Shown here: positions 444 through 22,897 of the stretch, in pieces
How the letters are laid out: each line of letters starts with the position of its first letter
Position numbering within the stretch: the first letter of the stretch is position 1
Source: a virus
Strand: one strand, 5' to 3'
Length of the DNA stretch: 37,310 bases
IMG/VR virus record: IMGVR_UViG_3300025127_000005
Coordinates: 1 to 37,310 of that record
Translations under genes and position numbers: made by a program
Notes under the pieces: model-generated
What the model was told of the DNA's origin: nothing
The model's database searches: none
Seen by the model: the letters and a program-made list of their open reading frames with translations, nothing else

Positions 444-1912
444 CTATACCAACAACCAACGATACCGCATTTATACAAGGCAAACCACAAGAAGTAGCTA
501 GAAGGAGTTTAACTAAAGAGACTTGTCAGAAGTGGGGGTATCACATTGGAACTCACAACGGAGAACCAGTACACATCGCTAACTATAAGAGTAGGAACGG
601 AGCACTTGTCGCACAGAAACTACGATTCGCTAACAAAACTTTTTCTATCAAAGGAGAGCTGTATGGCTTATACGGACAGCACCTTTGGAGTAGTGGTGGA
701 AGAAGAGTAGTAGTGTGTGAAGGAGAGATTGATGCGTTAAGTGTCAGTCAAGCCTTCGGAAACAAGTGGGCTGTGGTTAGTGTGCCTAACGGAGCAGGAG
801 GAGCAAAGAAATATGTCAGTCAAGCGATTGATTGGTTGGAATCTTTTGAAAAGGTAATCTTCTGTTTTGATAACGATGATCCAGGAAGAGATGGAGCTGC
901 AAAATGTGCAGCACTCTTGACTCCTGGTAAAGCATACATAGCTGAACTGCCACTTAAAGATGCTAATGATATGTTAGTGGCAAAGCGTAGCGAGGAGTTG
1001 GTGAATTGCTTATGGCAAGCGAGGGAATACAGACCTGATGGCATAGTAGGAGGAGAAGATATATGGCAAGCTGTGATAAAGGAGGATACTTCTGAGTCAC
1101 AACCTTATCCGTATGTTTCTTTGAATGATATGACACACGGTATAAGACGAGGAGAGTTGGTGACACTTTGTGCTGGTTCAGGGATTGGGAAGTCCTTGTT
1201 CTGTCGTGAAGTTTGTCACCATCTCCTTGGACTTGGCGAGACTGTAGGTTATATAGCACTGGAAGAATCAGTAAGAAGAACTGCACTTGGTATCATGGGC
1301 ATTCATCTTAACAAACCTTTGCACCTAGAGAATGATTTAAACGAGCAGGATTTACGCAAAGCATTCGATGAGACGATGGGTAATAAGAACTTTTATACCT
1401 ATGACCATTTTGGCAGTACAGAATCTGATAATCTATTATCAAAGATACGCTACCTTTGCAAAGGATTAGGTTGTAAGTGGATATTCCTTGACCATTTATC
1501 TATTGTGGTTAGTGGTATCCAAGGTGACGATGAAAGACGGTTAATCGATAATACAATGACACAACTTAGAAGCTTAGTAGAAGAGACTGGATGTGGAATG
1601 GTGTTAGTATCACACCTTAGAAGACCACCGAATGGTGGAGGACATGAAGAGGGTGGGGTAACTAGGTTATCAGACCTTAGAGGTAGTCATTCGATACCAC
1701 AACTTAGTGATATGGTAATAGGACTAGAGAGAAATCAACAAAAAGAAAACAATAACGAAACAAAAGTAAGAGTCTTAAAGAATAGATTCTCAGGTGAGAC
1801 TGGGCTGGCATCTACATTATTTTATAATCAAGACAGCGGTAGGTACACAGAGTGTGAAGATGTCTTCAAAGACAAAACAATAACAACCAACAACGGATCG
1901 AGTCCGTTTTAA
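314..1912 (+). CDS. gp4: DNA primase-helicase (T7 gp4-like)
   Basis: This is the bifunctional replication protein that makes RNA primers and unwinds the fork. The N-terminus has a zinc-binding primase domain with C10, C13, C29 and C32. A Toprim domain follows, with VVVCEGEIDAL (about residue 135) and FCFDNDDPGRDG (about 183). The helicase half has Walker A GSGIGKS (about 290), Walker B WIFLDHLS (about 395), and the HLRRPPNGG and DLRGS motifs seen in T7. The C-terminus ends in Phe like T7 gp4, which contacts the polymerase, though it lacks a strong acidic tail. The 532-residue length is close to T7 (566). The whole zinc domain is encoded inside the endonuclease I 3' end. An internal ATG at 440 (Met43) lies just after that domain and could give a T7 4B-like helicase-only form. 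No clear Shine-Dalgarno precedes 314. Confidence 0.95.
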   Translation: MAFTRTHQQCAKCGSSDALSVNADGSTMCFSCNTYSRGRQQTMTIPTTNDTAFIQGKPQEVARRSLTKETCQKWGYHIGTHNGEPVHIANYKSRNGALVAQKLRFANKTFSIKGELYGLYGQHLWSSGGRRVVVCEGEIDALSVSQAFGNKWAVVSVPNGAGGAKKYVSQAIDWLESFEKVIFCFDNDDPGRDGAAKCAALLTPGKAYIAELPLKDANDMLVAKRSEELVNCLWQAREYRPDGIVGGEDIWQAVIKEDTSESQPYPYVSLNDMTHGIRRGELVTLCAGSGIGKSLFCREVCHHLLGLGETVGYIALEESVRRTALGIMGIHLNKPLHLENDLNEQDLRKAFDETMGNKNFYTYDHFGSTESDNLLSKIRYLCKGLGCKWIFLDHLSIVVSGIQGDDERRLIDNTMTQLRSLVEETGCGMVLVSHLRRPPNGGGHEEGGVTRLSDLRGSHSIPQLSDMVIGLERNQQKENNNETKVRVLKNRFSGETGLASTLFYNQDSGRYTECEDVFKDKTITTNNGSSPF

Positions 1913-1920
1913 TAATATGA

Positions 1921-3819
1921 ATGAACAATAATACAACAAGCATAATGAAAATACTATTTTTTGATATAGAAACAAATCCAATCGAGGACTTCACTAATCT
2001 GAGTGACCTCAAGGTATGTCATTGCATATCCATCTATGATCCTATTGCCAGTAAGATGATTACATTTCAAGGGGAAGGTATAAAGGAAGGATTAAAGATG
2101 TTAAGCAAAGCAGACAAGATTGTAGGACATAATGTGATAAGGTTTGATCTACCTGCGTTAGCTAAGTTGTATAACTTCCATCCACCCTTGGTCCAAGTAC
2201 AAGACTCTCTCGTTATGAGTAGATGTTTACATCCTGACTTGAGAGAAGATGACTTCAAGCGTAAGGACTTTGACCCTGCTATGGTAGGTAGTCACAGCTT
2301 GAAAGCTTGGGGGCATAGGATGGGTAAGATGTTAAAGCTTACTTACGGAGAGAATGAAGATGCGTTCGATCAATACAACGAAGAGATGAAGAAGTATTGT
2401 GAACGAGATGTAATGGTAACTATGACCTTGTATGAATACCTAGCAAAACTAGGACCTAGCAAGAAGATGTTAGCTGTCGAACATTGGTTCGCTTACATCA
2501 TCAGGTTACAAGAGAGTCAAGGGTTTGCGTTTGATGTAGATAAAGCTGAACAACTAGAGCAGAAGTTAAACGCAGTGCGAGCCAAGCTACAAGATAAGTT
2601 ACAAGAAATGTTTGAACCTACTGTTAACAAGATGAAGACTCCGAAGGGTTATTCATTGGAGATTAAACATATGGACGGAGTGGAAGTTATCAACGCACCT
2701 ACTAAAGTAGAACTTAAAAATATACTGAAGAGTAGAGGGATGGTACAGAACTTAGTTAACAAAGCTGTACCATTAGATGTAAAGGAGGAGATCATACCTT
2801 TTAATCCTGGTAGTCGTAAGCAAATCAAAGAAAGACTAGAAGCTTTAGGTTTTGAAATACCTCTATCGAATGATGGCATGACTGTTAAGATTGATGAGTC
2901 TACTTTGAAAGCAATTAATCATCCATCAGCGAAGCTTTTGCTGGAGTACTTGTTAGTGGTCAAGCGACTAGGACAACTGGCTGAAGGTAAGAATGGATGG
3001 CTTAGACTAGTTAAAGAGGGCAGAATCCACGGACGAGTCAACACTAACGGAGCAGTCACAGGCAGATGTACTCATAGCCTACCTAACCTTGCTCAAGTAC
3101 CAGCTACTAGAGCAGAGTATGGCGAGGAGTGTCGTTCTTTATTTACAACTCAAAAAGGTTATAAGTTAGTAGGTTGTGATGCGAGTGGCTTAGAGTTGAG
3201 AATGCTTGCACACTACCTGTCTAGGTGGGATGGAGGAGAGTACACCAAAGCTATACTTGAAGGAGATATACACTCAGTCAATCAAAAGGCAGCAGGGTTA
3301 AAGACAAGAGATCAAGCTAAGACTTTCATCTACGGCTTCCTTTACGGAGCAGGTGATGCAAAGATAGGAGAGATTGTAGAGGGAACAGCAGAAGATGGCA
3401 GTAGATTAAAGAAGAAGTTTTTGTCTAATTTACCTGCGTTACAAATACTAAAACAGTTGATCAAAGAAAAAGCAGAACAGAACGGATGTTTAATAGGACT
3501 GGACGGTAGGATTCTACCCATCAGAAGTGAACACGCTGCACTTAATATGTTACTTCAATCCGCTGGTGCTGTGTTAATGAAGGTAGCTTTAATTAAACTA
3601 CACACCAAGCTTACAAGTATTGGATGGCAACACGGAAGAGAGTATGCATTCGTTGGTAACATACACGATGAGTTTCAAGCTGAAGTTAAACCTGAGCTTG
3701 TAGATATATATGGAGAATTAGCAATCAAAGCAATTCAATCAGCAGGTAGAGAGTTAAAAATGAAGTGTCCAATGGACGGTGAATATAAAGTAGGAGAGTC
3801 ATGGGCAGAGACACATTAG
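1921..3819 (+). CDS. gp5: DNA polymerase, family A (T7 gp5-like)
   Basis: This is the replicative polymerase with proofreading. The N-terminal 3'-5' exonuclease shows Exo I FFDIETNP, an Exo II-like segment NVIRFDLPAL and Exo III YCERDV. The polymerase half shows GAVTGRCTHSLPNLAQVP, motif A DASGLELRMLAHY, motif B RDQAKTFIYGFLYGAGD (with the Tyr equivalent to T7 Y526) and motif C GNIHDEFQ. The order and spacing follow T7 gp5; the length is 632 against 704 in T7. A region of about 70 residues before FNPGSRKQI occupies the place of the T7 thioredoxin-binding insert, but its sequence is not similar, so the processivity factor is unknown. An in-frame ATG at 1945 directly before KILFFDIETNP is an alternative start. 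The 3' end overlaps the next gene by 19 bp. Confidence 0.96.
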   Translation: MNNNTTSIMKILFFDIETNPIEDFTNLSDLKVCHCISIYDPIASKMITFQGEGIKEGLKMLSKADKIVGHNVIRFDLPALAKLYNFHPPLVQVQDSLVMSRCLHPDLREDDFKRKDFDPAMVGSHSLKAWGHRMGKMLKLTYGENEDAFDQYNEEMKKYCERDVMVTMTLYEYLAKLGPSKKMLAVEHWFAYIIRLQESQGFAFDVDKAEQLEQKLNAVRAKLQDKLQEMFEPTVNKMKTPKGYSLEIKHMDGVEVINAPTKVELKNILKSRGMVQNLVNKAVPLDVKEEIIPFNPGSRKQIKERLEALGFEIPLSNDGMTVKIDESTLKAINHPSAKLLLEYLLVVKRLGQLAEGKNGWLRLVKEGRIHGRVNTNGAVTGRCTHSLPNLAQVPATRAEYGEECRSLFTTQKGYKLVGCDASGLELRMLAHYLSRWDGGEYTKAILEGDIHSVNQKAAGLKTRDQAKTFIYGFLYGAGDAKIGEIVEGTAEDGSRLKKKFLSNLPALQILKQLIKEKAEQNGCLIGLDGRILPIRSEHAALNMLLQSAGAVLMKVALIKLHTKLTSIGWQHGREYAFVGNIHDEFQAEVKPELVDIYGELAIKAIQSAGRELKMKCPMDGEYKVGESWAETH

Positions 3820-4268
3820 ATTATGATTACTACTTGAAGGTTGCAGAAATGTACGATACAGTTGATCTAACATATACTATGCCATCTTCAAAAAGTCATC
3901 GGATAGGAGCGATAGCTGAGTCTAGGTTTGTAACTAAATGTTTAGAAAGAGATTTTGAACCTCACCTTCCTACTACACCCATGCCTTGGGACTTCCTTGT
4001 TACTTGCCCAGCTGGTGTTTTAAAAGTACAAATTAAATCAACAACTCATAAAAACAGTGCTAATACTTATGTTGTTAACTGTCGTTCAAATAAAAATCTT
4101 ATGTGCGATACAATAGATGTAGTGGGATGTTATTTAATACCTGAAGATACTTGGTGGATGATACCAAGAAAAGAAATAAAAGGATTAACCTTAAAGTTAA
4201 ATATCCTACCTAACAGTAAATCAAAACATAAAAAATACCAAGAGAACTGGAGCATATTCTATGAGTAA
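3801..4268 (+). CDS. Putative PD-(D/E)XK-fold nuclease
   Basis: This 155-residue protein lies between DNA polymerase and exonuclease. It fits a PD-(D/E)XK endonuclease core: a helix with E40 (GAIAESRFV), then a strand with D64 (MPWDFLV), then Q77-I-K79 (LKVQIKST). The pattern resembles the group-I-intron-endonuclease-like PD-(D/E)XK family; the assignment is by pattern recognition. A structure-specific or host-DNA-degrading nuclease would fit the neighbours, but the target is unknown. It begins within the last 19 bases of the polymerase gene behind an AGGAG, and overlaps the exonuclease start by 8 bp, so it is embedded in the replication operon. Confidence 0.65.
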   Translation: MGRDTLDYDYYLKVAEMYDTVDLTYTMPSSKSHRIGAIAESRFVTKCLERDFEPHLPTTPMPWDFLVTCPAGVLKVQIKSTTHKNSANTYVVNCRSNKNLMCDTIDVVGCYLIPEDTWWMIPRKEIKGLTLKLNILPNSKSKHKKYQENWSIFYE

Positions 4269-5181
4269 AACAACCATACTAATTGACGGAGATATATTAG
4301 CGTTTGAATCATCAATCGTAGCACAAGAAAATATACAATGGGAAGAGGAGCTTTGGACTGTACACGCAGATATGGCAGTAGCCAAGAATCGGGTCATTGC
4401 AAGGATAGAACAATTCAAAGATTTACTCAAAGCAGATGAAGTCGTGTTAGCACTTAGTGATCGAGCAAACTTCCGTAGGAAACTATTCCCTGACTACAAA
4501 TCGAATAGAAGAAAGTCTGTATTACCTATTATCTTGCAGCCTATGAGGGAATGGATGATCAATGAACTAAATGCACAACTATGGGCTAACATAGAAGCTG
4601 ATGATATATTAAGTATCTTAGCTACTGAGTATCCTAATTGGAAAGACAAGCGTATTATAGTGTCTATAGACAAGGACTTCAAAGGAGTACCAGGAATCTT
4701 CTATGATTATAACAGAGATGAATATCATGAACCAACAGAAGAGGAAGCAGATAACTTTCATTTGATACAGACATTGATGGGAGATTTTACAGATGGATTT
4801 AGTGGAGTCAAAGGTATTGGTCCTGTTGCAGCTAAAAGTTGGTTGGATAAATATGGATACACTTGGGAATCTGTTGTAGCAATGTACGAGAAGAAAGGAC
4901 AGACAGAACAGGAAGCTTTAATTAATGCGTGGATGGCAAGACTACTAAGAAAGAAAGAGTACAATAAAAAACAAAAACAAATAACAAGATTATGGACACC
5001 GAAGAACTACCAAACAGCGGACAAAAGGAAAATTACATCACTGGTGCACAGCGTGACAGGGCTACTGGACGAGGACGATTCAGCCTTATTCCTCCAATCG
5101 CCCTTCGATCCCTTGCCAAACGATTTGAAGAAGGAGGAAAACTCTACGGAGATAACAACTGGCAAAACGGATTCCCACTAA
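4261..5181 (+). CDS. gp6: 5'-3' exonuclease (T7 gp6-like)
   Basis: The protein has the FEN/5'-3' exonuclease layout. It opens with ILIDGDILAF (acidic D9, D11), then NFRRKLFPDYKSNR, NIEADDILSIL (metal-binding acidic cluster), SIDKDFKGVPG, and a helix-three-turn-helix GDFTDGFSGVKGIGPVAA. It removes RNA primers and degrades host DNA in T7. The length of 306 residues matches T7 gp6 (300). The start is an ATG overlapping the end of the preceding nuclease gene. The last 63 codons (from 4992) are also read in another frame as the start of the DUF5664-type gene, a 190-bp overlap. Confidence 0.93.
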   Translation: MSKTTILIDGDILAFESSIVAQENIQWEEELWTVHADMAVAKNRVIARIEQFKDLLKADEVVLALSDRANFRRKLFPDYKSNRRKSVLPIILQPMREWMINELNAQLWANIEADDILSILATEYPNWKDKRIIVSIDKDFKGVPGIFYDYNRDEYHEPTEEEADNFHLIQTLMGDFTDGFSGVKGIGPVAAKSWLDKYGYTWESVVAMYEKKGQTEQEALINAWMARLLRKKEYNKKQKQITRLWTPKNYQTADKRKITSLVHSVTGLLDEDDSALFLQSPFDPLPNDLKKEENSTEITTGKTDSH

Positions 5182-5354
5182 GTAGATTAATAGACAGCAT
5201 GAGTAGACATCTGATAGCATTAAGTGAAGGAGATAATAGAGAAGATCACGCAGGTGCTATACTGTGGAATGCGAGTGCTTTCCTGTGGACCGAGGATAGG
5301 ATAAGAAAGGGAAGATTACCACAAGAACTAGATGATAGGAGTTATAATAAATGA
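4992..5354 (+). CDS. DUF5664-type protein, putative dATP/dGTP diphosphohydrolase domain
   Basis: This 120-residue protein matches from memory the family annotated as dATP/dGTP diphosphohydrolase N-terminal domain (DUF5664). Hallmarks are GRGRFSLIPPIALRSLA, FEEGGKLYGDNNWQNG, LSRLIDSMSRHL and a late EDHAGAILWNASAFLW with the paired acidic/His residues of an all-alpha nucleotide pyrophosphohydrolase fold. A role in adjusting nucleotide pools during replication is inference. The conserved domain starts at about residue 17, so the overlap with the exonuclease 3' end (4992-5181) cannot be avoided by choosing a later start. It ends in an ATGA junction with the next gene. Confidence 0.75.
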   Translation: MDTEELPNSGQKENYITGAQRDRATGRGRFSLIPPIALRSLAKRFEEGGKLYGDNNWQNGFPLSRLIDSMSRHLIALSEGDNREDHAGAILWNASAFLWTEDRIRKGRLPQELDDRSYNK

Positions 5355-5593
5355 TAGCAAGAGCACAAGAAAACGAACCGTTAAAAGCTGATGGCTTTGA
5401 TGAAGCTATTATAGGCACTGATTATAAAGAAGGAAAAATAGTATATTCTATAGAACTTATGTTAGAGAAAATGATGCAAGAACCTACTAACATGACAATG
5501 GAGGAAGCAATAGAATACTTTGACTTTAACATCGGATGTGCTTATGTAGGAGAAATGACACCAATATATATATGGACTGGAGACACGCAATAA
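5351..5593 (+). CDS. Conserved phage protein of unknown function
   Basis: An 80-residue acidic protein. The C-terminal half MTMEEAIEYFDFNIGCAYVG followed by EMTPIYIW resembles a small protein with the pattern EEA-EFFEFN-GA-VGE-TP that recurs in many phages; no function is assigned. It is coupled upstream by ATGA (5351-5354) and downstream by TAATG (5591-5595), so it sits in the replication operon. An AGGAG lies 11 bp upstream of the ATG. Confidence 0.8.
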   Translation: MIARAQENEPLKADGFDEAIIGTDYKEGKIVYSIELMLEKMMQEPTNMTMEEAIEYFDFNIGCAYVGEMTPIYIWTGDTQ

Positions 5594-5787
5594 TGGAAGA
5601 TGAATTAATGCCAGCTATAAGCGAGGCTTTGGTTAAACGATTAGAACAATTATATCCTGACAAATGTCCTGACTTGACGAACACAGAAAAAGATGTTTGG
5701 TTTAAGATTGGTCAAGTATCTGTAATTAGATTCCTTAGACAAACTTATAACGATCAACTACAACAAAACATTTTAACAAAAGACTAG
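5593..5787 (+). CDS. Small hypothetical protein
   Basis: A 64-residue protein with an amphipathic helical look (MPAISEALVKRLEQLYPDKC, then KIGQVSVIRFLRQTY). The ATG at 5593 is preferred because it overlaps the upstream stop as TAATG and has a GGAG about ten bases upstream. An in-frame ATG at 5536 would run 58 bp into the upstream gene. The pattern resembles small phage proteins of about 60 residues near portal genes; no function is assigned. Confidence 0.7.
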   Translation: MEDELMPAISEALVKRLEQLYPDKCPDLTNTEKDVWFKIGQVSVIRFLRQTYNDQLQQNILTKD

Positions 5788-5789
5788 CT

Positions 5790-5993
5790 ATGTGTATGTC
5801 AGCACCAGATATTCCACCTCCTCCACCACCTCCAGCACCACCGCCACCTCCACCACCTGTTGCTGAAGCTTCTAAGACTGTTCGTCAGACACAACCTAAG
5901 AAGAGGAAGATGGGAGCACAAGCACAGCTCAAGCGTTCAAGACCTACATTAGGTGGATCAGCTGGTGGCACTGGTGTTTATATGTCATCTTAA
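5790..5993 (+). CDS. Proline-rich small protein, possible gp7.3-like virion protein
   Basis: A 67-residue protein with MCMSAPDIPPPP at the start, two runs of seven prolines (separated by one Ala), a basic centre (QPKKRKMG) and a Gly/Ser-rich end (GGSAGGTGVYMSS). Proline-rich proteins of this shape occur before the portal gene of many T7-like marine phages. The basic-then-GG ending recalls T7 gp7.3, an ejected virion protein. The gp7.3 link is inference from position and composition. It begins two bases after the previous stop; an alternative ATG is at 5796. Confidence 0.75.
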   Translation: MCMSAPDIPPPPPPPAPPPPPPPVAEASKTVRQTQPKKRKMGAQAQLKRSRPTLGGSAGGTGVYMSS

Positions 5994-6016
5994 TAACAAC
6001 ATAACAAAATAATATC

Positions 6017-6334
6017 ATGCTTCGCACACTCTTAAAAAAGACTTTGCTATCATCTGTTACAACAACAGGAGCTGGCAGTTCATTCTTAGTAGAGCGTTCT
6101 AAGGGTTGGACCTTTGTAATCGCTTCTTCATCAGTAACCACAGGAGGTACGGTAGATATAGAAGCGTACATCGGTGGTGCTTGGTATGTCATTCACTCTC
6201 AAGCTGTTACAGCTAACGGTGCTGTAGTAGTTAGAGATGATCACGGACACTACGAACAGATCAGGGGAAATGTATCAGCTAGAACAGACGGTACTTATAG
6301 CGTCTTTGCAACTGGTTCTACTGATTCTCTGTAA
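6017..6334 (+). CDS. Small beta-rich protein, likely structural
   Basis: A 105-residue protein with alternating beta-type segments rich in Thr, Ser, Val and Gly (GWTFVIASSSVTTGGTVDIE, then AYIGGAWYVIHSQAV) and no signal peptide. Small beta-sandwich proteins of this kind often decorate phage heads or tails, but no family is recognised. It is coupled to the LamG gene by TAATG at 6332-6336, so the two probably form a unit. Confidence 0.7.
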   Translation: MLRTLLKKTLLSSVTTTGAGSSFLVERSKGWTFVIASSSVTTGGTVDIEAYIGGAWYVIHSQAVTANGAVVVRDDHGHYEQIRGNVSARTDGTYSVFATGSTDSL

Positions 6335-7161
6335 TGTCTATCACCTTTGCAGATCAGCTAGGTAAACCTAGCGAGATAACAGCAATGCCCAATCAGTTGG
6401 TCAGACCTGCCTTTGGTACTTTGTATGGATTTGATGTACCTGTAGACGGAACACCAGCATTTTCAAACGGATTCAGCGTAACCCTAGATGGAACAAATGA
6501 ATATATTGACTATGGAAGTCCTGGCATATTTAATTTTGGAACTAGTAATTTAACTTTATCGACTTGGTTTAAGCCTACTGCTTATGCAGGTTCTTTTGTC
6601 ATGTTATTAAGTTCTCACACCACAGGAGCGGAATGGGGACTATTTATTGACAGTAGTAATAACTATAAATTTTATGCAGGTGGTGGATTTTATACAGGAT
6701 CGGGCATAAATTTAAATGCTTGGAACCATGGGGTTGTTGTCCGCGATTCTACTAATATAAACATATATTTAAATGGTGTTAAAAAATCGGTAGGATCAAT
6801 TGGATCGGGTACAAGTATCACTATGGGTGGTTCGGGAGTAGGCACAGGTTCAAAACCTGGTCTCGCTAATGACAGATACGAGGGATTTGTGGATGAATTT
6901 GCTTTATGGCAGTCCGCACTTTCAGACGGTGGTGTAAGTGCAGGGTCAACCGCTGGCGGTGACATAGCCACAATTTACAACAGTGGTATTCCCCACGACC
7001 TTGACACTTTGAGTACTAAACCTACTGCTTGGTGGCGAATGGGTGACTCAGACTCAGGAGCGGGTACAACTGTAACGGATGTTGGGCAAGGAGTTGGCGG
7101 GACTAAACAAAACGCAACTTTAAATAATGGTGCAGCTTTTACAAGTGATGTTCCAAGCTAA
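6334..7161 (+). CDS. LamG / concanavalin A-like lectin domain protein
   Basis: A 275-residue protein with a LamG-type jelly roll from about residue 45 to 210. Characteristic segments are FSVTLDGTNEYIDYGSPGIF, LTLSTWFKPTAYAGSF, AWNHGVVVRDSTNINIYLNG and VDEFALWQSAL. A second short repeat-like segment, PTAWWRMGD, follows. LamG_3 domains bind carbohydrate or protein, and phages use them as virion adhesins. There is no signal peptide, which suits a virion component rather than a secreted protein. The position before the portal gene, away from the tail fibre, is unusual for T7-like phages, so this may be an acquired host-binding or decoration module. Confidence 0.85.
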   Translation: MSITFADQLGKPSEITAMPNQLVRPAFGTLYGFDVPVDGTPAFSNGFSVTLDGTNEYIDYGSPGIFNFGTSNLTLSTWFKPTAYAGSFVMLLSSHTTGAEWGLFIDSSNNYKFYAGGGFYTGSGINLNAWNHGVVVRDSTNINIYLNGVKKSVGSIGSGTSITMGGSGVGTGSKPGLANDRYEGFVDEFALWQSALSDGGVSAGSTAGGDIATIYNSGIPHDLDTLSTKPTAWWRMGDSDSGAGTTVTDVGQGVGGTKQNATLNNGAAFTSDVPS

Positions 7162-7175
7162 TTTGAATAATTATT

Positions 7176-7406
7176 ATGAGCAGAAAATATGTAATAATCA
7201 ATGCGGACGAAGTAGACTCTGTTGATTTTAGCAAGGTCGAGGAAACAAGCGAAAGTACCCTTAAATTTTCAATTGATGGTAGTCAAACTTTTGTTAAGTA
7301 TGAAGGTGCGAAACCTCGTTTTCTTTACGGTAAACATACTTATACACATTCAGAGATACTCGCAGTTTTAAGTGGTGACGAGTGGACTTCTGAAAAACCT
7401 CTTTAA
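7176..7406 (+). CDS. Small conserved hypothetical protein
   Basis: A 76-residue protein (MSRKYVIINADEVDSVDF, later YTHSEILAVLSGDEW). Similar-looking small proteins accompany virion genes in marine phages, but no function is known. It starts 15 bp after the LamG gene with an A/T-rich leader and no Shine-Dalgarno, and ends four bases before the portal gene. Its place between the adhesin-like gene and portal suggests a virion or assembly role. Confidence 0.7.
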   Translation: MSRKYVIINADEVDSVDFSKVEETSESTLKFSIDGSQTFVKYEGAKPRFLYGKHTYTHSEILAVLSGDEWTSEKPL

Positions 7407-7409
7407 CTC

Positions 7410-8966
7410 ATGCATGAAACAGCTCAAGGTCTATACCACTCTTTAGAGAACCAAAGGTGGTCTTTCTTGGATAGAGGTCGTACCTCATCTGAGTTAACCA
7501 TTCCTTACATAATGCCACCTGATGGGCATAGTTATTCTACTAAGTATTACACACCATATCAAGGAGTAGGAGCTAGAGGAGTTAACAATCTAGCATCTAA
7601 GCTTTTGTTAGCATTGTTACCACCTAACGCACCGTTCTTTCGTCTTGTTATAGACAGGTATGAATTAGATAAAGCAAAACAGGAATTAGGACCAGAGGGA
7701 GGAGAGCAACTACGATCTGACTTAGAGAAAGCTTTAGCAGATGTAGAGCGAAGTGTATCTCAAGAAGTAGAAGTTGAAGCATTTAGAGTAGGAGTATTTG
7801 AAGCGTTAAAGAATCTATTAGTCACAGGTAATACTTTATTATACTTACCAGATGACGGTGGGATGAGAGTATTTAGGCTTGATAGGTACTGTGTTAAAAG
7901 AGACCCAATGGGTAATGTAACACACATAGCCATCAAAGAGACCGTTGCTCCGATGATGCTACCTGAGTCTGTAAGAGAAGAGGTATATCGTCAAGAAAAA
8001 GAAAATAGTTGTGATCTATATACCTCTGTAGTTAGGGAAGGAAATGAATTTGTAGTGCAACAAGATGTAAAAGGGATTGTTATAGAAGAGTCAAAGGGTA
8101 GGTATCCTGTTGAAAAGACTCCCTTCTTACCTCTTAGATATACCAGGATAGATGGCGAAGACTATGGTCGTGGGTTTGTAGAAGAGTATATAGGTGATCT
8201 TAAATCTCTAGAAGCTTTGACTAAAGCTATCGTAGAAGGAAGTGCAGCAGCAGCTAAGGTCTTGTTTATGGTTAATCCTAACGGTACAACCAGAGCTAAG
8301 ACTTTATCTGAATCTCCTAATGGTGCAATTGTACAAGGGTCTGATGGGGATGTATCTGTGTTACAACTTAACAAGTTCAATGACTTTCGTACAGCACAAG
8401 GAGTAATGAATGGGATAAGTGATAGACTATCTCAAGCTTTCCTGCTTAACAGTGGTGTAGTCAGAGATGCAGAACGAGTAACAGCAGAGGAGATAAGAAT
8501 GTTATCTCAGGAGTTGGAAGCTGCACTTGGTGGTCTTTATTCTTTGTTATCACAAGAGTTTCAAATGCCTGTTGTTACTAGGTTAATGGCAAGGATGGGT
8601 AAAGAAGGAAGACTTCCTAAGCTACCTAAAGACATTGTTAAACCTACTATTGTTACTGGTGTTGAAGCACTAGGACGAGGTAATGATTTACAGAAGCTTG
8701 ATCTATTCCTAGCAGGGGCTAATCAAATCGTTGGTCCTCAAGCAGTTGCACAGTATGTTAATGTATCTGACTACTTCAAAAGAAGAGCCACAGCGTTAGG
8801 CATCGAGACTGAAGGATTAATTAAGTCAAACGAAGAAATTCAACAAGCTATGCAGCAAGCCCAACAACAAGAGATGATGATGAAGTTGGGTGGACCTGCT
8901 GTAGCACCTGCTATCAATGCTGCACAGGAGCAGTACATGGCTTCACAAAAACCACAAGAAGAATAG
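7410..8966 (+). CDS. gp8: Portal / head-tail connector protein (T7 gp8-like)
   Basis: This 518-residue protein corresponds to the T7 connector (536). Typical family segments are YTPYQGVGARGVNNLASKLL, LALLPPNAPFFRL, LKNLLVTGNTLLYLPDDGGM, TPFLPLRYTRIDGEDYGRGF and AERVTAEEIRMLSQELE. The C-terminal end is Gln-rich. A dodecamer of this protein forms the DNA entry channel, initiates head assembly with scaffold and docks terminase and tail. It starts an ordered block portal-scaffold-capsid-tail. No Shine-Dalgarno is seen upstream. Confidence 0.95.
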   Translation: MHETAQGLYHSLENQRWSFLDRGRTSSELTIPYIMPPDGHSYSTKYYTPYQGVGARGVNNLASKLLLALLPPNAPFFRLVIDRYELDKAKQELGPEGGEQLRSDLEKALADVERSVSQEVEVEAFRVGVFEALKNLLVTGNTLLYLPDDGGMRVFRLDRYCVKRDPMGNVTHIAIKETVAPMMLPESVREEVYRQEKENSCDLYTSVVREGNEFVVQQDVKGIVIEESKGRYPVEKTPFLPLRYTRIDGEDYGRGFVEEYIGDLKSLEALTKAIVEGSAAAAKVLFMVNPNGTTRAKTLSESPNGAIVQGSDGDVSVLQLNKFNDFRTAQGVMNGISDRLSQAFLLNSGVVRDAERVTAEEIRMLSQELEAALGGLYSLLSQEFQMPVVTRLMARMGKEGRLPKLPKDIVKPTIVTGVEALGRGNDLQKLDLFLAGANQIVGPQAVAQYVNVSDYFKRRATALGIETEGLIKSNEEIQQAMQQAQQQEMMMKLGGPAVAPAINAAQEQYMASQKPQEE

Positions 8967-15690: not shown

Positions 15691-16308
15691 ATGTGTTTTT
15701 TTGCAGCATTAGGTGGAGCACTTGGAGCGTCAGCAGCTTCTGCTACGGCTACAGGTATTGCAGCAACAAGTGCAGCGATAGGTGCTGCTTCTTCGGGTTT
15801 ACAGTATGCTGGGCAAAGGCAACAAGCTAAACAACAAGCAGCTTTTCAAGCACAGTCAGCAGCAGCGGAAAGACAAAGAGCGTTACAGGAACAGTCCTCT
15901 ATCCGTATGCGTCAAGCACAAGAGCAAGAAGCTACTGCAAGGGAGCTTGAACAAGTTAGCAGAAAGTCAAGAGAAGCGTTAGCTAGAGCAAGAGTTTCAG
16001 CAGGGGAAGCAGGAGTTGCTGGTGCTAGTGTACAGGCTTTGATGGATGACTATACTAGACAGGAAGCAGGGTATAGAGCAGCTGTTACTAGACAACAGGA
16101 GTTAAGTGGATTAGGCACACAATTAGGATTAGAACAGGCAGGACTAGCTTCCCAACAAAGACTTATAAGTATTCAACAACCTATAGATAGACCTAGCTTT
16201 CTTACAGCAGGATTAGGTGCTATTAGTGGTGGACTTAGTGGATACAGGACAGGACTTGATATTGGTAGTAGGATACCTACGAAAGAACCTAAAACAGAAG
16301 TAAGATAA
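15691..16308 (+). CDS. gp14: Internal virion protein B (T7 gp14-like)
   Basis: A 205-residue Ala/Gln-rich protein in the gp14 position (T7 196). The N-terminus (MCFFAALGGALGASAASATA) is a hydrophobic Gly/Ala segment fit for membrane insertion. A long Gln/Arg/Glu coiled-coil follows, with the conserved ARARVSAGEAGVAGASVQAL typical of gp14. In T7 it is ejected into the outer membrane to form part of the DNA channel. It ends in an ATG overlap (TAATG) with gp15. Confidence 0.92.
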   Translation: MCFFAALGGALGASAASATATGIAATSAAIGAASSGLQYAGQRQQAKQQAAFQAQSAAAERQRALQEQSSIRMRQAQEQEATARELEQVSRKSREALARARVSAGEAGVAGASVQALMDDYTRQEAGYRAAVTRQQELSGLGTQLGLEQAGLASQQRLISIQQPIDRPSFLTAGLGAISGGLSGYRTGLDIGSRIPTKEPKTEVR

Positions 16309-18524
16309 TGGACGAACGAGTACAAGTAAGAGGGTTAGGTGATGCAGTTCCAGGTTTACAACCTACTATTCAAAGGGCAGGTCAATACAGTGTAGGTCAG
16401 CGTAGAGCTGGTAGGAATAAGTTGATGGACCTTGCTGACTCGTTATCACAGGTTAATCCTGTATTGCAGAAGTACACACAGGTAGCTGACATAGAAGCAG
16501 AACAATTTGAAGATGAGTTATCAAGGAAGAGTCCTGAAGAGATTCAAGCAATGCTTCAAAAGACAGAAGGAGAGTTTGATAAGCTAACTAGAAAAGGGGC
16601 AATGAGTTGGCTTACTTCTCCTATTAATCAGAAGAGGAAGATAGAAGCGATAGGTAAGTTAGCTAGTAGAGATTTATTATCTGAAGTAGAAAACCGTTTA
16701 ATAAATCCACAACAAAACGATCCAGAAGATTTAGTAGAAAGAGCTAGCCTAGTAAGGCAAGAGTTCATAGATAAAACACCAGCTTTACAATCTTCTTTTA
16801 TAGCCCAACAAGGTTTAGATTTTTCAACTCAAAATAGAATAAGAGAAACAGTAGCTAACTACGAAAGACAGGAATCAGTACAAGCGAGACAGGAAAACAT
16901 ATATAATACTGGATCAAGTATGTATGACAAAGTTTTTAACTTACTAGATACAGATAACGAGCAGATAAGAGAGAAGTTAATTAGAGGTGATTTTAATTTT
17001 GAAGTAGATAGAGATGCTTCAGGTAATATAATAACTCTAGGTGATTCTTTAATGGGGGATTGGGGAGGTACAAACGCTCACACTCCAAAAGAACAAAGAG
17101 ATTTATTAGCCAGCGTATTGAACAGAATGGCTGCTACAGATGAAATGGAAGATCAAGCTGACGGTTTATTATTATGGGCTAAAGGAAACTTAAAATTCGG
17201 CACAGCTAAAATGTCTGAAATGGAGTACAATAGACTACAAGACATTATAGATAAAGGAGCTGAATTAGCTGATGATAGAAGAGAAGAAGATAAACAAGAT
17301 TACATTCAAAACTTTTCAGGTAGTTTTAAAACAAACTTAACTAAATTAAAACTTGATAAACAAACAACTATTGAAGACCAAACTTTTGATAATAAAGGTG
17401 ATTTAGCTGAGTATTACAGAAGAGAGATTATAAACAATACGGATTTAACTGAAGCTGAAAAAGGTGATCTACTTTCTGAAATAGATAGAATACAAACTGA
17501 TGATTTAAGAGATGCTGATACTTATACTAAAACTTTAATAACAAACGCAGCTACAATAGCTCACCCTAGATCAGTTAACTCTAATCTTCAAAACTTATTT
17601 AAAGCAGTAAGTATTGAGTATCCTGATTTATTAAATAAACCTGAAATAATTGAGTACCAAAATAGAAAAGCAGCAGAAATTAATCTTTTAGTAGCTAACA
17701 AAAGAGATGAACTGTTAGGACTTCCTACAGAAGAAGCAGCTCAACAGTTAGACGCTTTTGCTACGACTTTATTAACAGAAAATGCACCAAAAATAAACGC
17801 AGAATTAAAAACTATTTTTACAGATTTAGAAGATAACCAACCTAAGACTGTGGTTACAGCTGAAAAACCTGAAGTACTACAACCTGTTGACATTGAAGGA
17901 GAACCTGAAGAATTGTTAAGAATGGCAGTTGATCCTGGTGGTTGGTATTCAATGGTAAGTTCTGATCCTAAAGATGAAAACTCTAACAAAGCTAAACAGT
18001 ACATTAAAAAATATATACCTGATTTAGCGAATGAATTTGCCAGACTTTCATATGATACTAACAGATATGTAGGTATAGGAGCAATGACACACGATGAAGC
18101 AAGACAAAGGCATATTGATTCGATTAGATTAATGGACGGTGTCTTTACCTTAGATGTTCTTGAAAACTTAGATGAAGATGGTTTTGCTCGTACTTATGCA
18201 GGGATTCCCTTTAAACCTCGTGAGTTAATAGGTGATCCTAACAGAGATAAATTTGTATTATTAACTCAAGAACAGATTGACAACGCTGAAACAGAACAAG
18301 GAAAACAAATAATTCAAAGAGTTAAAGAAGCGACAGGAATAAAAACAGAATTTTTTGAGTTTATTAGATTGCAAAAATTAGTTAGAAAAAGAGGAATCAT
18401 ACCTTATAAACCTTTTCCTGATTCGTACAGACCTTTAACTAATGAAGAGAAATTACAAGAATTAATAGATTCAGAAGGCATGAGCGAGTTTGATCCTCTA
18501 CCTGATTTTTTACTAATTGATTAA
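16308..18524 (+). CDS. gp15: Internal virion protein C (T7 gp15-like)
   Basis: A 738-residue protein, matching T7 gp15 (747), between gp14 and gp16. It is largely charged and helical with no membrane segments, as expected for the periplasmic tube protein of the ejectosome. The start DERVQVRGLGDAVPGLQPTI resembles related marine phages. Sequence similarity to T7 itself is low, so the call rests mainly on length, composition and position. A 2-bp gap separates it from gp16. Confidence 0.88.
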   Translation: MDERVQVRGLGDAVPGLQPTIQRAGQYSVGQRRAGRNKLMDLADSLSQVNPVLQKYTQVADIEAEQFEDELSRKSPEEIQAMLQKTEGEFDKLTRKGAMSWLTSPINQKRKIEAIGKLASRDLLSEVENRLINPQQNDPEDLVERASLVRQEFIDKTPALQSSFIAQQGLDFSTQNRIRETVANYERQESVQARQENIYNTGSSMYDKVFNLLDTDNEQIREKLIRGDFNFEVDRDASGNIITLGDSLMGDWGGTNAHTPKEQRDLLASVLNRMAATDEMEDQADGLLLWAKGNLKFGTAKMSEMEYNRLQDIIDKGAELADDRREEDKQDYIQNFSGSFKTNLTKLKLDKQTTIEDQTFDNKGDLAEYYRREIINNTDLTEAEKGDLLSEIDRIQTDDLRDADTYTKTLITNAATIAHPRSVNSNLQNLFKAVSIEYPDLLNKPEIIEYQNRKAAEINLLVANKRDELLGLPTEEAAQQLDAFATTLLTENAPKINAELKTIFTDLEDNQPKTVVTAEKPEVLQPVDIEGEPEELLRMAVDPGGWYSMVSSDPKDENSNKAKQYIKKYIPDLANEFARLSYDTNRYVGIGAMTHDEARQRHIDSIRLMDGVFTLDVLENLDEDGFARTYAGIPFKPRELIGDPNRDKFVLLTQEQIDNAETEQGKQIIQRVKEATGIKTEFFEFIRLQKLVRKRGIIPYKPFPDSYRPLTNEEKLQELIDSEGMSEFDPLPDFLLID

Positions 18525-18526
18525 TT

Positions 18527-21500
18527 ATGGCACTACCAGAAGAAAACACACAGGAAGATGATAACGATTTTTTTGATTATGCAGGTGATATACTTGCTGC
18601 TCCTTTTCGTGGGATGGAGGGTGCTGTTCAAGGAGCGTATAACCTAGCTGATTACTTGGCTTTTGATATACTACCTGATTATGATACTAGATTCCTTGGT
18701 ACTTCTAAAACTATGGCAGGTGGTGCAGTAGAAGGTATATCACAATTTGCTACAGGTTTCATTCCTTTGTTTGGTCTTGCAGGTAGAGCAGGTGCGTTAG
18801 CTAAAGCAGGTACTGTTACTAAGGGTGTTGTTGCTGGTGCTGCCACTGATTTTACTTTCTTTAACGGACAAGAAGCTAGACTGTCTAATCTTATACAACA
18901 AGTACCTGAGTTACAGAATCCTGTTACTGAGTTCTTAGCTTATGATGGAGATGAAGGAGAACTAGAAGGACGCATGAAGAATGTGTTGGAAGGTCTCGGT
19001 CTTGAAGCTGTAGCAGGTACTTTTATATCAGGACTGAAAGCTATAAAGAAAGGCAGAAAAGTAAAAGAAGAAGGAGGCACTGCTGAACAACAAGCACAGG
19101 TAGTTAATGATACTCTTGAAGGTGGTAAAGCTTTTGATGATATGCCTCAGTTCAAGGAAGATACATCCCTAATCCAAAAAGAACTAGACCAAGATAAAAC
19201 TAGGCTTGATGAACTGTTGAAGAAGAAAGAAGAAGGTAAAGCAACTGGTGTTGATGAGACTAGAATATCTATGCTTAAAAACCGTATAGAAGGTAAAGAA
19301 GCTGATCTTCGTGTGTTAGGTGATGTTAGGACTGCTGATGTAAAGGATAGGGTAAGAGTAGCAGAAGAAAGAGAACTACAGGAAAGAGCAGAAGAACTTG
19401 ACGAAACTTTAGAAGACTTTGACGCTACTGTAGAAAGAGTTCCTCGTCCATTTAAGACCTATGAAGAAGAAGGGATGATGGATATTATTCCTAAAGGTGC
19501 TGACACTCTAAAGAATAGGTTAATGAAGAAGTTCCCTATAAAGGGAGCAGACCCACAAGATGTAGCTGATGTTGAAAAGTTCATTGATGTGATGGGTAAG
19601 CGTCTGTTTGGTGATGTATCGTTATCCGTCACTAACAAGATACCATCTGCTGGTCGTTATAACTTTGGTAATAACCTACTACAAATAAGGCAGTCTGTTA
19701 TAGACGAGGGTGGTATTAAGCGTACTATGGTCCACGAGCTTTGGCATGGACTTAGTCGTTATCTTCCTAAAACAGATGTTACTTCTTTAACTAAACAGTT
19801 CGATAAAGCTAGAAGAGATTACATTAAAAGCTTTGGTGTTGATTTAGATGACACTGTTGATCCTTCTTCCTTACTTAAAAAAACAATACCTAAAGAACTA
19901 GAAAGATTTCTTAAAGGTAAACACACATCTGAGAACTATAGGTTTAAAGATGTAGACGAATACTTTGCAGAGGAGATGACCGATGCTTTCTTAAAGAAGT
20001 TAGACGAGAAAGATTTAGCTCCTTCAGGTACACTTAAAAGAATAGCACAAGAAGTAGCGATCATGTTCAAGGATATGTTTGCTTCTTTAAAATCTAAGTT
20101 AGGTATAGACCAAAGGCAGAAGATATTTAACGACTTCCTTAAACAGCGTAATGTAACTAAGAGAGCAGAAGCACCTTTAGATATGAGAGGTAGATTATTT
20201 GCTGATCTTCCTGATTTTAAGAAAGGTAAAGAGGATGAGTTCCTCAGTGCTATACCTGATAAGTTTAGAGGGTATGCTGAAGCACTTATGGTAGGTGAAG
20301 TAAAGCCTAGACTACCACAGTTTGCACTAGAGACTGACGGTGATGTTGTTGTACTGAAAGATTTACTAGAGAAATACTACGAAGCTAATCCTGATAAAGT
20401 AACCGTAGAGGGTGCTATTACTGAGATTGACGCTGAGATTGAACAAGGACTAATGTTACAAGAAGGTAAGGACGCTGCCACTAAAGTATCTGAAGCTAGA
20501 ATTGTTCAACAAAGTTTAAGAGACCAAGCTAATGGTGTTATTGAAAATCTTAAAAACGCTGTTAATGAGTATGAAGGAGCTGGAGGAGGCACGGCTGCTG
20601 TTGCTAAATTAAAAAATAATTTTCAACAATTATTAAGTGTAGCTGATGTTTACAGAAGGTTAGGAAGAGAAGGTAGTTTATTGCTAGGATCAAGAAGAGA
20701 AAACTACGGAAAAAGAAAGATAGGTCTCAGCGAATCTGATTTACAAATTGAAGGAATTAGAAATGCTTTTATAAACGCTTCAGGAGGTATGCACCCTGAC
20801 AAACTTGTTAAATTAATACAAGAAACAATAGACGAAGGAAACTCTGACTCAATGCTTGCTTCTATGTTTAAGATAGCTAAGAAAGCACAAGGTAAACACT
20901 TCTTGGATATGCCTACTGAATACTGGATGAATGCGATTCTTAGTGGTCCTAGAACACAGATGGTTAATATCATAGGTAATGGACTTACGCAAGTAATGTC
21001 TACATTAGAAGCTGTTGTAGGAGGAGTAGCGAGTGGTAATTTATCTGTGGTTAAAGCTGTTCTTGCTTCTTGGTCTAACGGTCAGATGTGGGGGGAAGCT
21101 GCTAAATTTGCTAAAAAAGCTTTTAAACAGAATGACAACTTATTAGACCCTCAAAACAGAGCTTTTTCAGACAGGAAGCAAGGGGCGATTACAGGCGAGA
21201 GGATTGCAGAAAGCAAGCTAGGTGGTATGGTAGTCGAAAAGGGACTTACAAGTAAGAAGTCTTTAGATGCTTTTGGTAACTTTATTCGTCTGCCTAGTAG
21301 GTTATTGTTAACTACTGATGAGTTTTTTAAACAACTGTCTTATCGCAGGGCTGCTCGATTAAAAGCTGCGATGTCTGGTATACAACAAGGAATAAAAGAC
21401 CCTAAAAAACTGGCTGAACACATACACAATACTTTAGAAGGTGTTGTTACTGAAGGAGGTCGGATTGCTTCTGAAGAAGGTTTATACAGAGAGGGTGTCG

Positions 21501-22897
21501 AGGCTGCCAATAAAAAGGGGTTGAAAGGATCAGACCGTGATGAGTTTGCTATTAAATATTCAAAAGATAACTTTGATAAAACAAATTCAGCTTTAATGCA
21601 GTATGCTTTAGACGAAGCTCAATACTTAACTTTTACTAGAAATTTACAAGACGGTACATTAGGTAAAGTATTACAAGATGCTACCAGTAAGTTACCTATG
21701 TTAAGATTAGTATTACCTTTTGTTCGTACTCCTACTAATATTTTAAAATACGCTTTTGAAAGAACTCCTGGTGTATTTGTTTTAAAAGAAGAAAGAGGAA
21801 GATTAATCAGTGATCTTAAAAGTGGTGACCCTGTAAGACGCTCACAAGCTGTGGGAAAAATGATGACATCAGTAACAGTTGCTGGTGTGTTTATAGATAC
21901 AGTTTTCAACAACAGAGAATATATAACAGGAGGTGGACCTAGAGACCCCAAACAAAAGAAAGCCTTGGAGGCTACTGGATGGAGACCTTACAGTATTAAA
22001 ATTGGAGATACTTATTATAGCTACCAAAGATTAGACCCTTTAGCTACATTGATAGGAGTAGGAGCTGATCTTGTAGAAGCAGGAGTAAGAGACCCTAAAG
22101 GTTTTGATCAATCAGGTTTAGAAAGATTGTTTTTAGCTTTAACTTTAAGTTTTACTAGGAATGCTACTAATAAATCTTATTTAGCTGGTATTCAAAGTGC
22201 AACTGATGCTTTGAGTGATCCTGATAGATATATGGCTAGATTTGGCAGGAACTTCGCTTCATCTTTTGTTCCTAATATTATATCTCAAATGGCAGACTAT
22301 GATACTCAATCTCTAAAAGAGGTCAGATCAATGGGAGATGCTTTTGCTAAAAAGTTAGGAGCAAGAGGTGGTTTAGATAAGAAAAGAAATCTATTAGGAG
22401 AAGAATATATAGCAGAGCAGTGGATGGGTACAGGTTTTATAAATCCTATTATTATGTCTTCTGTTAAAGATGATCCTGTGTTAACTGAAATGGCAAACTT
22501 AAACCATGCTTTTAGACCTTCCTCTCCTAATTTAGGAGGTCAAATAAACTTAATAGACCATGAAAATGCTTCAGGACAAACAGCTTACGATAGGCAAGCG
22601 GAACTGTTAAAAGATGTAAAAATAGGAGGCAGAACTTTACGCACTTCTTTACAAAAACTTATAAAAAGCAGACCTTATCAAAAATTAGAACAAACATCTG
22701 AACCTGGTTTTCCTAGCCCACGAATAGAAGAAATAAATAAAGTATTAAGAAGGTATAAAAAGGAAGCTAAAAAACAAATGTTAACCGAGTTTCCTGAGTT
22801 AGCTTCTCAGTATAATAAAGCCTTAAAAGCTAGAGCAGGTTTAAGAGGTGGGATGCAACGAGAAGATGTGCTTGAACTTTTACAACAAATAAACTAA
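18527..22897 (+). CDS. gp16: Internal virion protein D (T7 gp16-like) with HExxH zinc-protease motif
   Basis: At 1456 residues (T7 1318) this is the largest gene and occupies the gp16 position. The N-terminus has hydrophobic segments (about 55-115) and no visible lysozyme-like SLT motif. A charged coiled-coil follows (about 205-320). Residues about 340-540 look like a zincin: VHELWHGLSRYL gives H403-E404-x-x-H407, and DEYFAEEMTDAF about 75 residues later offers the third ligand (E478, E482 or E483). The C-terminal half, with EYWMNAILSGPRTQMVNI, RLVLPFVRTPTNILKYAFER and YSYQRLDPLATLIGVGADL, resembles the ejection proteins of this group. T7 gp16 opens peptidoglycan and leads DNA entry; here a peptidase may do this. 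Confidence 0.9.
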   Translation: MALPEENTQEDDNDFFDYAGDILAAPFRGMEGAVQGAYNLADYLAFDILPDYDTRFLGTSKTMAGGAVEGISQFATGFIPLFGLAGRAGALAKAGTVTKGVVAGAATDFTFFNGQEARLSNLIQQVPELQNPVTEFLAYDGDEGELEGRMKNVLEGLGLEAVAGTFISGLKAIKKGRKVKEEGGTAEQQAQVVNDTLEGGKAFDDMPQFKEDTSLIQKELDQDKTRLDELLKKKEEGKATGVDETRISMLKNRIEGKEADLRVLGDVRTADVKDRVRVAEERELQERAEELDETLEDFDATVERVPRPFKTYEEEGMMDIIPKGADTLKNRLMKKFPIKGADPQDVADVEKFIDVMGKRLFGDVSLSVTNKIPSAGRYNFGNNLLQIRQSVIDEGGIKRTMVHELWHGLSRYLPKTDVTSLTKQFDKARRDYIKSFGVDLDDTVDPSSLLKKTIPKELERFLKGKHTSENYRFKDVDEYFAEEMTDAFLKKLDEKDLAPSGTLKRIAQEVAIMFKDMFASLKSKLGIDQRQKIFNDFLKQRNVTKRAEAPLDMRGRLFADLPDFKKGKEDEFLSAIPDKFRGYAEALMVGEVKPRLPQFALETDGDVVVLKDLLEKYYEANPDKVTVEGAITEIDAEIEQGLMLQEGKDAATKVSEARIVQQSLRDQANGVIENLKNAVNEYEGAGGGTAAVAKLKNNFQQLLSVADVYRRLGREGSLLLGSRRENYGKRKIGLSESDLQIEGIRNAFINASGGMHPDKLVKLIQETIDEGNSDSMLASMFKIAKKAQGKHFLDMPTEYWMNAILSGPRTQMVNIIGNGLTQVMSTLEAVVGGVASGNLSVVKAVLASWSNGQMWGEAAKFAKKAFKQNDNLLDPQNRAFSDRKQGAITGERIAESKLGGMVVEKGLTSKKSLDAFGNFIRLPSRLLLTTDEFFKQLSYRRAARLKAAMSGIQQGIKDPKKLAEHIHNTLEGVVTEGGRIASEEGLYREGVEAANKKGLKGSDRDEFAIKYSKDNFDKTNSALMQYALDEAQYLTFTRNLQDGTLGKVLQDATSKLPMLRLVLPFVRTPTNILKYAFERTPGVFVLKEERGRLISDLKSGDPVRRSQAVGKMMTSVTVAGVFIDTVFNNREYITGGGPRDPKQKKALEATGWRPYSIKIGDTYYSYQRLDPLATLIGVGADLVEAGVRDPKGFDQSGLERLFLALTLSFTRNATNKSYLAGIQSATDALSDPDRYMARFGRNFASSFVPNIISQMADYDTQSLKEVRSMGDAFAKKLGARGGLDKKRNLLGEEYIAEQWMGTGFINPIIMSSVKDDPVLTEMANLNHAFRPSSPNLGGQINLIDHENASGQTAYDRQAELLKDVKIGGRTLRTSLQKLIKSRPYQKLEQTSEPGFPSPRIEEINKVLRRYKKEAKKQMLTEFPELASQYNKALKARAGLRGGMQREDVLELLQQIN

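Follow-up and report, generated by a model that had tools for sequence, protein, structure and literature searches.

A candidate zincin metallopeptidase as probable exchangeable cargo in the gp16-type ejection protein of a marine T7-like phage

The window analysed here, that is, the whole stretch of DNA of 37,310 bases, is a single virus record (IMGVR_UViG_3300025127_000005) with a T7-type gene content. It encodes a primase-helicase, a DNA polymerase, portal, capsid, nozzle and internal virion proteins, and in addition a T7-type tail fibre, a terminase and a single-subunit RNA polymerase. Genes at the gp13, gp14 and gp15 positions are followed by an open reading frame (ORF) at 18527-22897 and then by the T7-type tail fibre gene, and because of this place the ORF is considered to encode the gp16-type ejection protein. 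The features of this region are the following:

15691 to 16308, plus strand: gp14-type internal virion protein (PF24072 T7_gp14, E 4e-25)
16308 to 18524, plus strand: gp15-position ejection protein of 738 amino acids, assigned by position only
18527 to 22897, plus strand: gp16-type ejection protein (internal virion protein D homologue) of 1456 amino acids, assigned by homology and gene order
18527 to 19141, plus strand: N-terminal chassis segment (residues 1-205) with no SLT domain, kept in complete relatives whatever their slot content
19133 to 19153, plus strand: border motif F203-D-D-M-P-Q-F209, of the form F-x-[DE]-[LMI]-P-x-F, based on its recurrence at module borders
19142 to 20206, plus strand: exchangeable slot (residues ~206-560), whose content differs among relatives that share the chassis
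19442 to 20161, plus strand: predicted zincin-like metallopeptidase domain (residues ~306-545), based on conservation in 67 homologues, AlphaFold2 topology, fold matches and a profile link to the HEI/MLH class
19733 to 19747, plus strand: H403-E404-L-W-H407, predicted two zinc ligands and general base, invariant in three classes
19958 to 19960, plus strand: E478, predicted third zinc ligand on the second active-site helix, based on invariance in three classes and on model helix 178-195
20198 to 20218, plus strand: border motif F558-A-D-L-P-D-F564 directly after the zincin, again based on recurrence at module borders
20207 to 22897, plus strand: C-terminal chassis segment (residues 561-1456), containing the phrog_6651 stretch and kept in all relatives

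The protein matches phrog_6651, an internal virion protein family of PHROGs (E 6e-57), with the best stretch at residues 985-1444, and tblastn retrieved proteins named 'internal virion protein D' from Pelagibacter and Roseobacter phages, which belong to the marine Autographiviridae. The latter matches form two blocks and leave the middle of the window protein unmatched. The internal virion protein D of HTVC119P, HTVC011P and CRP-114 shares the N and C chassis of the window protein with 26-39% identity per piece, but its slot contains no HExxH motif and no zincin. The order gp13-gp14-gp15-gp16-tail fibre is the same as in T7, which suggests a shared role with T7 gp16, and by position and family the C-terminal segment can be equated with T7 gp16-C. 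Thus, the gene order and the internal virion protein homology of the T7 gp16 family are present, but in contrast to T7 gp16 the window protein lacks the N-terminal SLT transglycosylase domain and contains a swappable slot that bears the zincin. The window gp16 contains no cysteine in its 1456 amino acids, and the gp16 of most checked phages is likewise cysteine-free (ProddE: 3). In three contigs (L010, L056 and L061), the gp16 frame is split into two ORFs, which reflects either an assembly error or a real arrangement.

For the neighbouring gp15-position protein no matches were obtained in Pfam, in PHROGs or in 50,697 phage records; its C-terminus, D-P-L-P-D-F-L-L-I-D, is close to the border motif of gp16. 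A Laminin_G_3 (concanavalin A-like lectin) protein of 275 amino acids is encoded directly upstream of the portal gene at 6334-7161.

Among the IMG/VR relatives, three HExxH classes are found in the same slot: HELWH, to which the window protein belongs, HE[I/L/M/V][LV]H-like (HEI/MLH) and HE[A/G/S]TH (HExTH). Relatives may also contain ART-PolyVal, LPD37, GYF_2 or HTH repeats in the slot, or have no zincin. The N and C segments co-vary (r 0.89, 54 proteins), while the tie between zincin and C segment is weaker (r 0.59). A zincin with 95% identity to that of the window is found in L078 on a C chassis of 35% identity, and zincins with 98-99% identity are found in L090 and L024 on C chassis of 47% identity. 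L021, L022 and L023, in turn, have C segments that are 94-95% identical to that of the window, yet they carry the HExTH class. As judged from these sequence comparisons, the zincin is a swappable cassette between conserved N and C parts of the chassis.

The other slot contents were identified by Pfam as ART-PolyVal in L004 (E 6e-10), where it is encoded at 3448-4485 between the N segment and a HELWH zincin, as LPD37 in L067 and L073 (E about 1e-18), as GYF_2 in L021 and L022 and as HTH_40 in L012 (E 5e-8). A scan with the C segment detected a zincin in 39 of 44 complete proteins (20 HELWH, 12 HEI/MLH and 7 HExTH) and none in the remaining five; these proportions are those of a sample that is biased to close relatives and includes some near-duplicate records. 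No sizeable module separates the zincin from the N segment in 41 of 57 HELWH proteins. An ART-PolyVal insert as in L004 is also present in L016 and L018, judged by equal insert length and sequence, and about three HTH-like units of ~60 amino acids each occur as slot cargo in L012, L015 and L078/L079. Two gp16 chains (L217, ORF 1889-8542; L229, ORF 2900-8320) contain two different zincins each. By eye, the region that follows the zincin in L044, L053 and L059 had seemed to contain a methyltransferase-like segment, and L034 and L047 had seemed to contain ART-like segments, but Pfam supported none of these.

When all 37.3 kb of the window are translated in six frames, HELWH is the sole HExxH, and by composition alone only 0.004 such motifs would be expected in the window protein. 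Downstream of HELWH, D477-E-Y-F-A-E-E483 is encoded at 19955-19975. In 67 distinct domains of the HELWH class, H403, E404, H407, D477, E478, Y479, F480 and E482 are invariant. The window domain shares 13-21% identity with the other two classes, and a combined alignment of 57 domains from all three classes is invariant only at H403, E404, H407, Y471, E478 and G526; three alignment settings placed HExxH and the downstream Glu in the same register. Because E478 is the only other invariant acidic residue in this alignment, it is likely the third zinc ligand.

A first AlphaFold2 model, based on 44 close homologues, was of poor quality (pLDDT 60) and consisted of helices only, as would be expected if the HExxH were a coincidence in a helical ejection protein. 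The deeper three-class alignment, in contrast, produced a model with zincin topology (pTM 0.71), which was the only one used for fold searches. It comprises a helix (45-63), three strands (67-71, 78-81 and 86-90), the HExxH helix (99-112) and the Glu helix (178-195), which corresponds to the order of the zincin core; beyond residue ~195 the model is of low confidence. Comparison with the PDB gave 23 zincins among the best 24 rows, with row 2 being unclassified, and included BlaR1, selecase, LTA4 hydrolase, lethal factor, MATCAP, ArdC and minigluzincins, entries that we take to be zincins from general knowledge. None of these matches reaches E 1e-3 singly and all have E>0.1, so that their weight lies in their consistency. 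The best local matches are the minigluzincins (abylysin and jannalysin) and selecase, which are HExxH zincins of ~105 amino acids (Foldseek probability up to 0.89; E-values 0.25-2), but different from the window domain they are stand-alone archaeal proteins, and they show no sequence match to it. Viral fold matches comprise 'Internal protein D', 'internal core protein', ART-PolyVal-like and MuF proteins. The zincin topology, the fold matches, the low chance expectation and the conservation in 67 and 57 domains already contradict a coincidental motif, which we consider extremely improbable.

Profile comparisons link HELWH with HEI/MLH (85%, E 6e-6) and HEI/MLH with HExTH (98%), and HELWH and HExTH could not be aligned directly. 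The virion RNA polymerase family phrog_2206 was matched by 26 of the 57 aligned members. In single-domain scans, all six HEI/MLH or HExTH domains, but neither of two HELWH domains, matched it at positions 2023-2249, which in profile numbering (not N4 numbering) lie near the C1 domain of the N4 virion RNA polymerase (vRNAP). The HELWH class is thus connected to the MPTase segments of N4-type vRNAP and DarB-like proteins only via the HEI/MLH profile. The window domain alone retrieved nothing from Pfam (E<=1), PHROGs or PDB sequences, and MPTase-PolyVal (PF18818) did not match it at E<=10. HELWH and HExTH domains gave no matches in the 50,697 phage records, L212 likewise gave none, and 86 pattern matches in GTDB genomes included no relative.

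Twelve clades of polyvalent-protein MPTases in a wide sense have been defined (Iyer et al. 2017, PMC5512222), and their core has been described as a helix, three strands, the HExxH helix and the Glu helix (PMC5512222). The window domain resembles these enzymes, including C1 of N4 vRNAP, in the HExxH helix, the three-stranded sheet, the Glu on a second helix and a variable insert between the two helices. Like them, window-type zincins belong to a large protein that is delivered from the virion, and have ART and LPD modules as neighbours. Differences are the chassis, which is of the T7 gp16 type, and the absence of a direct PF18818 or PHROG match for HELWH. With the conserved HExxH, the Glu on a later helix and, as far as the model goes, the zincin fold order, the domain has the hallmarks of the zincin superfamily, and its setting, a large virion protein of several domains that holds further effector modules in relatives, is typical of the polyvalent type. 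Residues ~306-545 are therefore classified as a probable zincin of the MPTase kind known from polyvalent proteins, its fold and zinc chemistry being predicted from families.

A sequence-only reading of this DNA had proposed such a domain at 19500-20160, similar to the zinc metallopeptidases of phage polyvalent proteins. The span closely matches the zincin core, H403-E-x-x-H407 and D-E-Y-F-A-E-E are present where they had been placed, and the resemblance is supported by the three-class conservation, the AlphaFold2 topology, the matches to zincin folds and the matches of the related classes to the vRNAP profile. The acidic group 478-483 stood only in part: E478 is invariant in three classes, but E483 varies within its own class and E482 across classes.

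One could argue that the HExxH domain is a structural relic, in which the zincin fold serves as a spacer and catalysis is lost or irrelevant. It sits within a structural protein, and the C1 domain of N4 vRNAP is reported to hold an HExxH motif without reported proteolysis (PMC12633501). Nevertheless, the ligands and the base are all invariant at 13-21% identity between classes, and a relic appears improbable.

The usual view of T7 gp16 is that of a DNA-entry channel component that carries a domain for cutting the cell wall. The sequence-only reading had noted that this transglycosylase domain is missing here and had suggested the zincin as its replacement, that is, as a different chemistry for crossing the cell wall. 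The first point agrees with our searches: Pfam detected nothing at E<=1, SLT included, anywhere in the window protein, and PF01464, PF01510 and PF00959 were all absent from the record in profile searches. Across positions 1-37310, no SLT, amidase, lysozyme, endolysin or other wall hydrolase was recognised, although a diverged enzyme may escape such searches. This leaves a little room for a virion peptidoglycan hydrolase, i.e. an endopeptidase that stands in for the T7 transglycosylase.

The replacement does not hold when the gp16 family is compared more widely. Neither SLT nor HExxH is present in gp16 of the isolates HTVC119P, HTVC011P, CRP-114, CRP-118, S-TIP28 and ProddE or in the gp16 homologue of fosmid clone S28-C10, and the existence of such marine homologues without both domains indicates that the loss of SLT did not need a zincin. 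A diverged SLT in the ~25-120 extra upstream residues of isolated marine gp16s was also considered, but Pfam gave no support. Conversely, gp16 of Xanthomonas phage f30-Xaj (NC_030937; L154:3216-8126) has an SLT domain at residues 14-126 and a HEMLH zincin at 675 in one chain. Since there are gp16 proteins with neither domain and with both, and since five of the 44 complete relatives have no zincin, SLT and zincin vary independently. The window domain furthermore matches none of the known wall-hydrolase families, its fold neighbours are protein and peptide proteases, and peptidoglycan endopeptidases are known mostly from other folds (M15, M23, NlpC/P60). Taken together, a wall-cutting function seems quite improbable. 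The alternatives in the sequence-only reading, cleavage of a host protein or processing of virion proteins, fit the data better.

The f30-Xaj protein, like the window protein, is an Autographiviridae ejection protein with a zincin, but its N-terminal SLT sets it apart, and its chassis has no BLAST match to the window protein. The tblastn matches of its zincin include the vRNAP of a Vibrio phage and a DarB-like protein. Close relatives of this zincin, some annotated as transglycosylase, are present in about two dozen records of phages of Xanthomonas and Stenotrophomonas. As an isolated Pradovirus, f30-Xaj offers a culturable model for the question of SLT and zincin.

Our preferred explanation, which we consider fairly probable, is that the domain is a zincin metallopeptidase that is carried by gp16 as exchangeable cargo and acts as a protease at entry. 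H403, H407 and E478 are predicted to hold the zinc ion and E404 to serve as general base. By analogy with T7 gp16 and N4 vRNAP, we infer that the zincin is co-ejected; it would leave the head inside gp16 as the DNA is ejected and would act during entry, most likely in the host and on proteins rather than on peptidoglycan. In T7, gp16-N is located in the periplasm and gp16-C is reported to reach the cytoplasm (PMC8954989). Because the domain sits between the equivalents of gp16-N and gp16-C, the zincin may end up in either compartment. A protein-cutting effector is favoured because the slot swaps with ART and polyvalent modules and because often no sizeable module other than the zincin precedes the C segment. 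If this explanation is correct, the target may well be a host protein, a call that we regard as evenly balanced; gp16 itself, by self-processing, is a possible but less probable target, and other virion proteins are improbable ones.

Self-processing deserves attention on account of the border motif. F-x-[DE]-[LMI]-P-x-F was found 72 times in 57 HELWH proteins, each time at a module border (72/72), and in none of 30 same-chassis proteins with another or no zincin; the motif had been spotted by eye before counting and the 57 proteins are related, so that these numbers provide a lead and not a statistic. Its carriers include the gp16 ORFs of L012, L013, L015 and L078. Some of its occurrences separate the zincin from HTH or other cargo, and the codons of the motif differ while the peptide stays the same. 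It may represent a cut site, a docking motif, or a recombination seam or cassette end. According to the first possibility, the zincin would process gp16 at these seams and release the N part, the cargo and itself from gp16-C, and this cleavage would occur in the head or after entry; we hold this to be rather unlikely. The restriction of the motif to borders of HELWH proteins and the conserved seam peptide would suit self-processing, and this is also the role chiefly put forward for MPTases of polyvalent proteins (PMC5512222). On the other hand, 16 of the 57 proteins contain only variants of the motif, nothing sizeable would be freed upstream in 41 of 57, and the motif could be the mere end of a mobile cassette. 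Moreover, delivery without processing has been reported for N4 vRNAP and for conjugative MPTase proteins (PMC5512222).

Zincins in virion-delivered polyvalent proteins are already known. In the searchable literature, which provides partial coverage, we found no description of zincins or metallopeptidases among the internal virion proteins of phages like T7, nor of a gp16-type chassis with an exchange slot, of the HELWH class or of the seam motif. The terms 'ejection', 'internal virion', 'cyanophage' and 'Pelagi' are absent from the main text of Iyer et al. 2017 (PMC5512222).

With one slot, three zincin classes, natural variants without zincin and a candidate cut site, gp16 of these viruses provides a small and defined system, which is relevant for the question of what the zincin domains of virion-delivered proteins cut. 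As a more speculative and rather doubtful proposal, gp16 of marine T7-like phages might be an interchangeable delivery chassis, whose slot would acquire different enzymes by recombination and in which the HELWH zincin cuts its own seams and frees the payload after delivery into the host; if this is true, a structural DNA-entry protein doubles as an injector of early effectors. The gp16-type protein described here resembles a vehicle with a slot in which protein-modifying enzymes are exchanged, and the polyvalent-effector idea would extend from N4 vRNAP and P1 DdrB to marine T7-like phages.
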